Assembly: GCA_007694035.1 (NCBI GenBank)
Contig: RECM01000197.1
Location: 1-62,348, forward strand
From: Balneolaceae bacterium
GTDB taxonomy: Bacteria > Bacteroidota > Rhodothermia > Balneolales > Cyclonatronaceae
DNA: 62,348 nucleotides
Reading direction: 5' to 3'
The notes under the pieces are model-generated. The model searched no databases. It was not told where the DNA came from and saw nothing but the letters and a program-made list of their open reading frames with translations. The translations under genes and the position numbers were made by a program. Of this stretch, positions 42,452-48,354 are shown piece by piece. Each line of letters begins with the position of its first letter. Position 1 is the stretch's first letter.

Positions 42452-42862
42452 CATTCCCGTACAGCCCGGTTGATCAGCGATTGGCAACTTTATGCTCCAT
42501 AGCCGGTAAGACTGTGCCGGTGTGCCGGTTACAATCACAGGTTCCAGCTAATTAAGAATAACCGTTCCGGAAAGATAGGCGGAAATGGCGCTGTCATAAG
42601 TCCTTTTTTTATGTGATGCAGCCCTGATTTTTAACAGAAAATGCCTGTTTTCATGGCCTGGATGTTATCATTTCGACACAAATTTAAGTTTTTTATATAT
42701 TTATGACATTTAAGTGTCGAAGCGCTTCCCAACCGCATCTTGATTAAGAAACATTGCATAATAATCGTAATTTATTTAGGCATAAACATCTTTTTACCTA
42801 ATTATTTTACTGCCCCTCCGGGCATAATCTATGCACATGTGAACTTATTTGTATAGAAAGGG

Positions 42863-43108
42863 TTGACATGTTGTGCCGAATTGACAATACTACAGCCGGA
42901 CAACACGCCTGATCTTAATCAACGCTGCTTGGATACTCAGAACACATATAACCGCAACATCCCGAACGGAAATCCGACTTCCGCGGGCAATACTGTGGTT
43001 TCTGCTGTCCCTGCCTTCAATGGTGCCACCCCCGACATCATTATCAGCATTATTATTATCAGCCTACTAGTCCTAGGGATTTTCTCTGAGCTAATTATTA
43101 TTAGCTGA
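42863..43108 (+). CDS. probable branched-chain amino acid leader peptide for the ilv-leu operon (start codon uncertain: TTG/GTG only)
   Basis: Ends DIIISIIIISLLVLGIFSELIIIS*, upstream of ilvB; dense Ile, Leu, Val codons just before stop at 43108. Confidence 0.65.
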   Translation: MTCCAELTILQPDNTPDLNQRCLDTQNTYNRNIPNGNPTSAGNTVVSAVPAFNGATPDIIISIIIISLLVLGIFSELIIIS

Positions 43109-43220
43109 AATAAAGAGGTCATCCCTTAGCCTGCCTTCCGCAACACTGCATTCTCACTCACTTACAAGACAAGCACCAAGGGTTGACCTCAGAAGAAAAC
43201 TGTGAACTTCATAAGGTCAA
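43089..43220 (+). promoter_or_regulatory. candidate attenuator RNA with alternative pairings
   Basis: AGCTAAT-TATT-ATTAGCT hairpin (43089-43106); GAGGTCATCCCTT (43115-43127) pairs with AAGGGTTGACCTC (43178-43190, one mismatch); TTGACCT (43183-43189) alternatively pairs with AGGTCAA (43214-43220). Confidence 0.55.
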
Positions 43221-43410
43221 AAATGCAAAACCAACGAATCAAAAACGGAACACCCAAAGGCTCTACGCCGGCAATTACGGTACTGTATCCAAATTCTGAC
43301 AGTGATTTACTACGCTATGCCCGCTGCTGCATGATCCAAACCGGAGACTTTTTAACCGGTTTTCACCGATAAATCCGATATCACTTCACCGATTCAAAAC
43401 ACCCATCATT

Positions 43411-45177
43411 ATGTCCGTCACAGTAAAAACATCACAACAGGCTCAGGTAAAAACTGAAACAAACGGCCACGCTGCAGGAATTACCACCAAAACAATGACC
43501 GGCGGCGAGATTCTCATTCAAAGCCTTATTGATATGGAAGTCGATACGGTTTTTGGCTATCCCGGTGGTGTGGTGCTCGGGGTTTACGACGATCTCTACA
43601 GGCATCCGGAACTCCGGCACATTCTTGTTCGCCATGAACAGGGCGGCACCCATGCCGCCGAAGGCTATGCCCGAATGACCGGAAAACCAGGCGTTGTGCT
43701 GGTCACATCCGGGCCCGGCGCCACCAATACGGTTACCGGCATCGCCAATGCCTACATGGATTCCATCCCCATGGTCATTTTTACAGGCCAGGTGCCATCT
43801 ACCATGATCGGCAACGACGCGTTCCAGGAGGCCGACATTGTGGGCATCACCCGGCCGATTACCAAGCACAGTTATCTGGTTAAAAAGGTTGAAGACCTGC
43901 CGAAAATTATCCGTGAGGCGTTTCATATAGCCGCCACCGGCCGTCCCGGACCTGTACTGGTGGACCTTCCCAAAGACATGCTTTTCAGCAAAGGTGAGTA
44001 TCAGAAGAATCATCCTATTAAAATTCGCGGTTACCACCAGGAGGTGGATGGAAACGCCGCACAGATCCGGAAAGCAGCCGAACTGATCCGTGTGGCAGAA
44101 CGTCCGCTGATCTATGCCGGTGGTGGTGTGGTAACCGGCGAGGCCTGGGAAGAGCTCCGTGAGCTGGCATACAAAACGGGTATTCCCGTAACCACAACCC
44201 TTATGGGCCTGGGAACCTTCCCGGAATCGCATCCCCAGGCACTGGGCATGCTGGGCATGCACGGCACATGGTACGCCAACATGGCGATTCAGAGCTGTGA
44301 TGTGCTCATTGCCGTGGGAGCCCGATTCGACGACCGTGTTACCGGCCGTGTGAAGGACTTCTCCCCCCTTTCCCGCAAAATTCATATCGACATTGATCCC
44401 GCCTGTATCAATAAAAACGTGGAAGTGGAAGTACCGGTAATCGGCCATGTGAAAAACGTACTCACACAGCTCATACCGCAGGTAGGAAAAGCCGAAATAA
44501 GCGGTTGGATCAGCCAGCTTGATACCTGGAGAAAAGAACATCCGCTCAGGTGCCCGATGGAGAAGGATGTGATCACCCCCCAGTGGATGATCCGCCGGAT
44601 TTCAGAATTCACCAATGGTGATGCCATCGTGGTTACCGATGTGGGCCAGCACCAGATGTGGGCGGCCCAACACTACACCTACAACCATCCGCGCTCCTGG
44701 ATATCCTCGGGCGGGCTTGGTACTATGGGTTTCGGCTTCCCGGCGGCAATGGGTGCCAAGATCGCCTGCCCCGACCGCGAGGTGGTTTGCATTACCGGCG
44801 ACGGCGGATATCAGATGACCACCTTTGAGCTGGCAACGGCCGTTCATTACAAAGTGCCCGTGAAGATTGCCATTATGAACAACGGCTACCTCGGCATGGT
44901 AAGGCAGTGGCAGCAGCTTTTCTACGGCGGGCGCTACTCCCACTCCCACCTGGCTCCGGCCAACCCCGATTTCGTGAAGATGGCCGAAAGCTATGGTGCA
45001 GTCGGCATGCGGGCCCGTACCCCGGAAGAGCTCGACAAGGTGCTCGAAGAGGCCATGAAGATTACCGATGTACCGGTGGTGATGGATATCGTTGTGCCGG
45101 AGGGTTATAACGTATATCCGATGATCCCACCCGGAGCGGCTGTACACGAAATGGTTGAAGAAGACCCCAAACCCTGA
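43411..45177 (+). CDS. ilvB: acetolactate synthase large subunit
   Basis: [66 protein letters not shown], ThDP motif [29 protein letters not shown]. Confidence 0.98.
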
Positions 45178-45183
45178 TCCGGC

Positions 45184-45717
45184 ATGTCTCAGCAAACCAT
45201 AATATCACAACCCCGAAATAAAATGGCGAAACGCCACACCATCTCGCTCAAGGCCGTTTACGGATTTAACGCCCTCTCGCGAATCTCCGGCCTGTTCAGT
45301 GGCCGGGGGTTCAGCATCGACAGCATTTCGTTCGGCGATGCCGAAGAACCTGAAACCTCGAGGGTAACCATAACCACCAGCGGCGACGAGCGCATCATTG
45401 AGCAGATCACATTTCAGCTCGAAAAACTGGTGGATGTGGTCGAAGTAAAAGACCTCACCTATGTGCCACACGTGGAACGGGAGCTCGCACTTGTCAAAGT
45501 TGGCTGCAGTATGGCCAACCGGTCCGAAATCATGCAGATCGCCAATGTTTTCCGCGCCAAGGTGATCGACATCAGTCCCGAAAGCATGACTCTTGAAATT
45601 ACCGGCAGCCGCGACAAGGTGGATGCATCCATTACCATGCTTGAGCCCTACGGACTTCGCGAAGTGGCCAGGACCGGCACCGTGGCGCTGCCCAGAGAAT
45701 ATCAACCCAAAGATTAA
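45184..45717 (+). CDS. ilvN: acetolactate synthase small subunit
   Basis: [51 protein letters not shown] domain. Confidence 0.95.
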
Positions 45718-45746
45718 ACCCAAATCAAACGCAAAAACCTCCGGAT

Positions 45747-46778
45747 ATGAAACTCTATTATGACAACGACGCCAACATCAATTACCTCGACGGCAAGACC
45801 GTGGCCATTCTCGGCTACGGCAGCCAGGGACACGCGCATGCGCTGAACCTGCGCGACAGCGGGGTCGACGTGGTGGTTGGCCTCCGCAAAGACAGCAAAT
45901 CGTGGCACAAGGCCGAAGAAGACGGTGTACGTGTAGCAGAAACCGCCGAAGCGGCAAAACAGGCCGATATTGTAATGATCCTGATGCCCGATCAGATCCA
46001 GGCTGATATCTATGAGAAAGACATCCGTCCGAACATGAAGCCCGGCAACGCGCTTGCTTTTGCCCATGGTTTCAACATCCATTTCAACCAGATCAAGCCA
46101 AGCCCCGATGTGGATGTATTCATGGTAGCCCCCAAAGGTCCCGGCCACCTGGTGCGGCGTGTATTCACCGAGGGCCAGGGTGTGCCCTGTCTGTTCGCTG
46201 TTTATCAGGATGCCAGCGGCGCGGCGCGCGATATGGCCATGGGCTATGCCAAGGCCATCGGCGGTACCCGTGCCGGAATCATCGAAACCAATTTCCGGGA
46301 AGAGACCGAAACCGACCTTTTTGGCGAGCAGGCCGTGCTTTGCGGCGGTGTGACCGAACTAATCAAATACGGATTTGAAACCCTCGTAGAGGCCGGATAC
46401 AAGCCTGAAGTGGCTTATTTCGAATGCCTGCACGAGCTTAAGCTCATTGTCGACCTTTTTTACGAAGGCGGCATTGCCGGAATGTACTATTCGGTAAGTG
46501 AAACCGCTGAATACGGCGGCATGATTGCCGGGCCGAAGGTTGTTGACGCCGGCACCAAAGACCGGATGAAAAAAGTACTCAACGCTGTTCAGAACGGCGA
46601 ATTTGCCCGTGAGTTTATTCTGGAGAACAAGGCCAACCAGCCTGTGATGAACGCCCTGCGCAGGGCCCATAACGAGCACCCGATCGAAGTAGTTGGTGCC
46701 AAACTGCGCCCCATGATGAGCTGGATAAAAAACACCAAATCCAAAGATGATGCCAAAACAGTCAATACTACTGTTTGA
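45747..46778 (+). CDS. ilvC: ketol-acid reductoisomerase
   Basis: [51 protein letters not shown]. Confidence 0.98.
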
Positions 46779-48354
46779 CACGACCCTAAGGGACGGGACC
46801 CAGGGCGAAGGAATCTGCTTTTCCGCCGAGGACAAGCTGAGGATCGCCCGTCGGCTCGACGCGTTCGGTATACACTATATCGAGGGCGGATGGCCGGGCT
46901 CCAACCCGAACGATCTCAGATTCTTTGAGAAGGCGCGCCGCGAGCACTTCCGTCACGCACGCATTGTTGCATTTGGGAGCACTATGCGATCCGGAGGCCG
47001 CGTCGAGGAGGATGCAAATGTGCGCGCCCTCCTCGAAGCGGAAACCCCTGCGGTATCCGTGTTCGGAAAAAGCTGGCTGCTCCATGTGGAGCAGGCGCTG
47101 GCCATTACCCCCGACGACAATTTGCATCTGATCCGGCAGACGGTAGCATACCTGAAAGCGCATGGACGGGAAGTGATCTACGACGCAGAACACTTCTTCG
47201 ACGGTTATAAAAGCAACCCCGGCTACGCCGTCGCCACGCTAAAGGAAGCTTCCGAAGCCGGAGCAGATGTACTCACGCTCTGCGATACCAACGGGGGCAC
47301 CATGCCCTCAGAGGTAGCCGCTATAGTGGCGGATGTAGTATCACAGATCGATACACCGATCGGTATCCACACGCATAACGACTGTGAGATGGCGGTTGCC
47401 AACACCATTGCGGCCGTTCAGAACGGGTGTACCCTTGTGCAGGGAACCATCAACGGTTACGGTGAGCGCTGCGGCAATGCCAATCTCTGCTCAATAATAC
47501 CCAACCTGCAGCTCAAGCTCGGCTATAATGCCATTCCTGAAAAAAATATGGCCCAGCTCGCTTCCCTCTCCCATTTTGTAAGTGAACTGGCCAACATGGC
47601 GCCTGCCACTAACCATGCATTTGTCGGGAAGAGCGCATTTGCCCACAAGGGCGGTATTCATGTGAGCGCAGTAATGAAAAATCCGGATACCTACGAACAC
47701 ATCGCGCCGGAGCAGGTTGGCAATGAACGCAGGGTTCTTGTGTCTGACCTTTCAGGACGCAGCAATGTACTCTACAAGGCCAAAGAACTCGATTTCGACC
47801 TGGAAATGGACAAAGAGACCGCATCCGGCATCGTAAAAGAGCTCAAGGAGCTGGAAAACAACGGCTATAACTATGAAGCGGCCGACGCCTCACTCGATCT
47901 TCTCATCCGAAGGCACACCGGAAGTGAGGAGCCCATATTCGGCATCGAGGGCTTCCGCCTGCTCTGCGAGAAAGACGAGGCAAATAACATGCGCTCGGAA
48001 GCGACCATCCGTGTATCGGTACATGGCGTAACCGAGCATACCGCCGCCGAAGGATGCGGGCCTGTACACGCGCTCGACATGGCCATGCGAAAAGCCCTGA
48101 GCAAATTCTTCCCTGAAATTGATGATATGCGGCTCAACGATTATAAAGTAAGGGTACTGAACGAACAGGAAGGCACCCGGGCCCGTGTACGTGTACTCAT
48201 CGACTCCGGCTGCAAGTCAGCCACCTGGGGAACAGTCGGCGTATCCGACAACATCATCGATGCCAGCTGGCAGGCACTGATGGAAAGTTACGCCTACTTC
48301 CTTCACCATTTCGCAGAAACAACCCATAACAGCATCAAACAAAAAGTATCATGA
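46750..48354 (+). CDS. cimA: (R)-citramalate synthase
   Basis: [69 protein letters not shown]; overlaps ilvC by 29 bp. Confidence 0.93.

Follow-up and report, generated by a model that had tools for sequence, protein, structure and literature searches.

What controls the branched-chain amino acid genes of a Balneolales-type genome is the question raised by the DNA upstream of ilvB in the window, that is, the whole stretch of 62,348 nucleotides analyzed here (G000:C141, from a genome of 4.0 Mb). The nearest named relatives of its IlvB are metagenome-assembled genomes of Balneolales. A putative switch element lies 5' of the genes ilvB-ilvN-ilvC-leuA/cimA, and an earlier note on this DNA had described it as a leader followed by three RNA segments, A, B and C, arranged as an attenuator. 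The promoter, the leader and the genes are as follows.

42863..42891, + strand: probable sigma-70-type promoter (TTGACA, 17 nt, AATACT; 10/12 matches in a consensus scan), retained in the sister species G009
42932..43108, + strand: Ile/Leu/Val-rich leader ORF ending in TPDIIISIIIISLLVLGIFSELIIIS and a stop; start uncertain, TTG 42932 preferred
43411..45177, + strand: ilvB, acetolactate synthase large subunit (Pfam TPP_enzyme N, M and C)
45184-45717, + strand: ilvN (Pfam ALS_ss_C)
45747-46778, + strand: ilvC (Pfam KARI)
46747-48354, + strand: leuA/cimA-like gene, 535 aa (Pfam HMGL-like and LeuA_dimer)

The genes ilvN, ilvC and the leuA/cimA-like gene (45184..48354) are probably the remainder of the ilvB operon. 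The leuA-like gene at 46747-48354 may be a citramalate synthase gene (cimA), which, if so, would fit with the Ile-heavy leader. We also observed a noncoding, single-copy block at 42676-42757, which is 91% identical to G009 between poorly conserved flanks and contains a palindrome, GAAGCGCTTC, and a near-palindrome, GACATTTAAGTGTC; this block is possibly a second promoter or operator.

The leader ends at a TGA codon (43106-43108), and its Ile/Leu/Val-rich end is found in the window and in 57/57 relatives. Starting from TTG 42932, the leader would have 59 codons, and many relatives of family f5 have leaders of 60 to 62 codons starting from ATG. The TTG is preferred because G009 has an in-frame stop immediately 5' of the same TTG. 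An ATG-started, Leu-rich ORF overlaps the leader in the +1 frame at 43020-43070 (MVPPPTSLSALLLSAY and a stop) and is open in G009 too (MLSPPTSLSALLLSAY and a stop); it was rejected as the leader, since the Ile/Leu/Val frame is the one conserved in other species.

The segments that follow from the sequence of the window are given below, with a segment 1 added inside the leader.

43073..43087, + strand: segment 1, in leader codons; CTAGGGAT (43073-43080) pairs with ATCCCTTAG, and TCTCT (43083-43087) pairs with AGAGG
43089..43106, + strand: perfect 7-bp hairpin over the last leader codons
43115..43127, + strand: segment A, GAGGTCATCCCTT, with pairing to B in 57/57 relatives
43178..43190, + strand: segment B, AAGGGTTGACCTC, complementary to A and to C
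43207..43220, + strand: segment C and its inner CTTC arm, from folding, with a start codon adjoining in nearly all relatives

On re-check, the coordinates of A, B and C and the 6-nt spacing between the leader stop and A proved exact. The two pairings described before were confirmed as well: A:B pairs at 12/13 positions, and B:C joins TTGACCT (43183-43189) with AGGTCAA (43214-43220), extended by GAAG (43192-43195) with CTTC (43207-43210). The comparative data described below indicate that all three segments are real; a fourth had been missed, since leader codons 43073-43087 (CTAGGGAT plus TCTCT) pair with AGAGGTCATCCCTTAG in A, and the 1:A duplex folds with -15.6 kcal/mol. Because 1:A, A:B and B:C are all present, segments 1, A, B and C are, on their complementarities, a four-segment attenuator, with mutually exclusive 1:2, 2:3 and 3:4 pairings, segment 1 inside the leader and, in the window, a weak segment 1. 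The 7-bp hairpin at 43089-43106, which the earlier note had also pointed out, is poorly conserved (about 5 bp in G009) and is probably accessory.

Complementarities of this kind could have arisen in the window by chance, and single-sequence folding does little to distinguish the region (z of only about -1, with values of -1.1 and -0.8 for the window RNA); the energy of B:C by itself gave a p of 0.16. The A:B helix score of the window exceeded those of all 100 dinucleotide shuffles of the region. Against chance also stands the sister species G009, which is of the same genus (the N-terminal half of IlvB is 96% identical) and retains the leader end, with a single change in A and none in B or C, next to scrambled DNA between C and ilvB. 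This contrast suggests that the leader end and the three segments are under selection. Furthermore, 59 Balneolales ilvB upstream regions were collected, two of which were too short to judge; the leader of one region, L114, was assigned by hand, guided by its neighbor L111. All 57 judgeable regions have an Ile/Leu/Val-rich ORF end, a stop, a few nucleotides and then A, B and C, and in 55 of them A:B scored no lower than the 95th percentile of the shuffled sequences. In the largest family, f2, A (GCCAGAGGTTAGA) and B (TGACCTCTGGC) are very conserved, and the loop between A and B differs in length and sequence among relatives.

The architecture extends beyond the order. About 10 of the 31 genomes sampled from the class outside Balneolales have a matching layout in unrelated letters (e.g., GGCCAATCCCTT with AGGGGATTGGCC as A:B), as do the named Rhodothermus and Rhodothermales records L007 and L020. 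In another family of the class (L164, L165 and L171-L173), the A-B loop has AGGTATCG, complementary to CGATGCCT 3' of B, so that the third pairing is apparently made another way. When 250 genomes of the class were scanned, a covariance model, R1, built on 27 relatives with the window excluded, gave 54 matches, about one per genome. From the coordinates, as we read them, 47/54 lie directly 5' of ilvB, and the others are on separate (probably broken) contigs, are opposite-strand echoes or, in one case, a weak stray. In the 62-kb window, the sole match of this model (43061-43193) falls exactly at the element, although weakly (13.7 bits, E 0.63), and under strict filters G000 was absent from the matches of the class scan; the window is therefore a divergent member. 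Given the retention in G009, the order-wide architecture and its recurrence with other letters, we regard a chance origin as extremely improbable.

Covariation, which the earlier note had proposed as a check, was then evaluated in two ways. Within f2, the covariation score of B:C (0.188) was reached by only 1/500 shuffles, with pairing in 72% of the cells of the alignment and compensated variants present in the inner stem. The covariation of 1:A and A:B within f2 was not above that of shuffles; these helices hardly vary there, which makes within-family covariation uninformative, and, therefore, energies of matched pairs were compared with those of pairs swapped between families. In f2, the leader codons ATTCTAATTTCTGGC (Ile-Leu-Ile-Ser-Gly) are complementary to GCCAGAGGTTAGAA, and in two f3 species, the leader sequence TCAGGAAT is complementary to ATTCCTGA. 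Leader:A was more stable when matched than when swapped in f2 (-20.4 versus -12.1 kcal/mol), f1 (-21.2 versus -15.1 kcal/mol) and f5 (-18.2 versus -14.3 kcal/mol), with a slight gain in f3 (-13.2 versus -12.1 kcal/mol). Matched A:B pairs were also better than swapped ones, clearly so in f2 and f3.

How a ribosome on the leader might affect these pairings was evaluated by a ribosome walk, in which a ribosome was placed at each codon in turn and assumed to mask 12 nt 3' of its A-site codon (footprint from PMC4833913). The RNA beyond it was then folded, and the energy needed to open the ribosome-binding site that follows C was computed for 55 species. The family means were 3.7 to 7.1 kcal/mol with no ribosome, about 2.3 to 3.2 kcal/mol with the A site no more than roughly 11 codons upstream of the leader stop, and 5.1 to 7.5 kcal/mol with the ribosome at the stop. 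The site thus opens while the ribosome is about 12 to 2 codons short of the stop and shuts at the stop. The difference between stop and stall was 2.8 to 5.0 kcal/mol for the real sequences versus 0.1 to 0.5 kcal/mol when the region after the stop was shuffled. This opening and then shutting of the ribosome-binding site was seen in four Balneolales families, with Ile/Leu/Val codons occupying the gating interval of the leader; 3/55 species had the reverse of the expected walk. In the window, A:B had a probability of about 1 and B:C one of 0 for every tested A-site codon as far as 43100; moving the A site to 43103 raised B:C to 0.9, and at the stop codon (43106) it was about 1. The folding thus bears out the earlier proposal that a finished leader favors B:C and a stalled one favors A:B. 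Without a ribosome, A:B is favored at equilibrium in the window because segment 1 is weak there, and the modeled default state of the window may be on, unlike that of f2 and most relatives.

A conserved hairpin or a ligand-binding riboswitch, with an Ile/Leu/Val-rich ORF that is not the sensor, would account for the strong conservation of A and B in f2. However, the variable length and sequence of the A-B loop argue against it, and no relevant Rfam match was obtained, either at the gathering score or at E values up to 10. In addition, the leader frame is kept and Ile/Leu/Val-rich in all families, its Ile/Leu/Val codons fall within the gating interval, and the leader coding sequence is itself one arm of the switch. 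We therefore consider such a riboswitch or hairpin very unlikely.

Next, the position of C bears on the output of the element. In 35/35 f2 species, a candidate ilvB start lies 17 to 37 nt 3' of B, mostly 20 to 25 nt, too close for a terminator to fit between them; in several f1 and f5 species, the candidate ilvB start is 14 to 46 nt 3' of B. Segment C overlaps the ribosome-binding site (GAGGTCATATG and similar), and since in f2 this site belongs to ilvB's own start, a translational output is expected there. In the window, the AAGGTCA in C is the ribosome-binding region of ATG 43223, and the genome has a standard anti-SD, GATCACCTCCTT. A scan of the window found no T run or terminator-like site 3' of B:C, and no T run follows B:C in the relatives. 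The element has the Ile/Leu/Val-rich leader of a classical attenuator, lacks a 3:4 intrinsic terminator with a U tract and, as in a translational attenuator, uses one of its alternative pairings to sequester the next ORF's ribosome-binding site. The earlier suggestion of a translational output was right about the missing T run; in the window, the ribosome-binding site at C fronts ORF2 and not ilvB.

A transcriptional attenuator, in which B:C or a downstream structure terminates in an unusual way or via Rho and the next ORF is translated only as a by-product, has precedents to recommend it. The leader-peptide systems of ilv genes described in the papers cited here rely on terminators or use antitermination (PMC10272879, PMC1262725; for S. 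aureus, as cited in PMC13009471), the spacer past C is rich in C and poor in G (29% C, 15% G), which would suit Rho, and regulated Rho polarity of such a kind is known from toiL-topAI (PMC12121999). Yet B:C lacks a following T run in both the window and the relatives, the f2 spacing places C at the ribosome-binding site, and the same species have plain T-run terminators elsewhere. Indeed, 29/30 Balneolales trp upstream regions have a Trp-run (WWW) leader and then a classical T-run terminator, and the thirtieth is truncated by a contig end; the absence of a T run at ilv is therefore a property of the element and not of the group. Among these trp regions (L205-L234), that of the window's own genome (L206, G000:C279) has the leader NIWWWSIR, a stop and a T-run intrinsic terminator. 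A Rho effect, moreover, would sit downstream of a translational switch and would not replace it. Altogether, we judge a transcriptional attenuator to be improbable. Upstream of hisG (L175-L204), about 24/30 regions have His-rich ORFs, mostly without a terminator-like hairpin downstream.

The ORF that follows C is a short one, and not ilvB, in the window, in G009, in f3 and in most f5 species.

43223..43372, + strand: ORF2, 49 aa, candidate relay ORF; open in G009 (48 aa), ending 38 nt 5' of ilvB in the window

This arrangement requires that the signal be relayed. ORF2 has nearly no amino acid conservation between the window and G009 beyond the first residues, and the gap between ORF2 and ilvB is 38 nt in the window, 48 nt in G009 and 12 to 28 nt in several others. 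The ilvB start of the window lacks an evident SD and is unstructured (1.1 kcal/mol), i.e., not occluded. We infer that translation of ORF2 probably relays the signal to ilvB, by reinitiation across the 38 nt or by Rho exclusion. A two-step upstream-ORF cascade, in which the leader gates ORF2 and the act of translating ORF2, not its product, turns on ilvB by reinitiation or Rho shielding, is a tentative proposal that we rate slightly below even. We also looked for a coupling hairpin at the start of ilvB. The window and G009 have none (about 1 kcal/mol); it is suggestive in some f5 species (from 7.4 to 3.6 kcal/mol in L094) and is not general. In the f5 species L093-L095 and L100, ORF2 is conserved and 25 codons long. 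Its product terminates in most cases with YGYSI or a similar sequence, and the final codons can base-pair with the start of ilvB (CATCTG with CAGATG), which suggests, from these complementarities, translational coupling between ORF2 and ilvB.

Overall, we hold it highly probable that the element is a ribosome-mediated translational attenuator of the ilv operon. In the proposed mechanism, the sensor would be a ribosome translating the Ile/Leu/Val-rich leader peptide. When Ile, Leu and Val are ample, the ribosome would reach the stop and cover the 5' half of A, so that B:C could form and hide the ribosome-binding site (off). A stall at Ile/Leu/Val codons would cover segment 1 and leave A free to pair with B, exposing C (on) and presumably raising expression. 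On a ribosome-free leader, segment 1 could hold A, and B:C would stay formed in most relatives. The gated site would be ilvB's own ribosome-binding site in most relatives and that of ORF2 in the window genome.

If true, much of a bacterial class controls branched-chain synthesis by ribosome-gated access to a start codon, with textbook terminator attenuation of tryptophan kept within those same cells, which raises the question of why the ilv output is translational and the trp output transcriptional. The element would also supply a deep sequence alignment for a three-way RNA switch with one arm forced to be protein-coding, as well as an example of a relay ORF that is open to testing. A search of mainly open-access literature yielded neither a description of the element nor any translational attenuator of branched-chain amino acid genes reported from the Balneolales group. 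Ribosome-binding-site variants may reportedly have been discussed already by Lopatovskaya et al. in 2010, in work on attenuation in bacteria.

Among known systems, the classical ilv/leu/trp/his leader-peptide attenuators (E. coli type; the Corynebacterium ilvB-II motif, PMC10272879; the Actinobacteria ilvB leaders, PMC1262725) share the amino-acid-rich leader ORF and the competing 1:2, 2:3 and 3:4 pairings set by the ribosome and, in the case of the ilv attenuators (PMC10272879, PMC1262725), the target operon. However, their 3:4 is a U-tract terminator, whereas here 3:4 sequesters a ribosome-binding site, and the sequences are unrelated. The S. aureus rbfL leader (PMC13009471) likewise governs translation initiation through a leader peptide that responds to an amino acid, in that case arginine, but differs in amino acid, target and phylum. 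In E. coli toiL-topAI (PMC12121999), stalling on an upstream ORF also controls translation of the next ORF; that system senses antibiotics, controls toxin-antitoxin genes and has Rho termination as a second output, which for the ilv element is only a possibility. Finally, erm-type translational attenuators (ermB, PMC8274638) share the freeing of a sequestered ribosome-binding site by a stall in the leader ORF, but they answer antibiotics, whereas the signal here would be Ile/Leu/Val tRNA charging, i.e., codon hunger.
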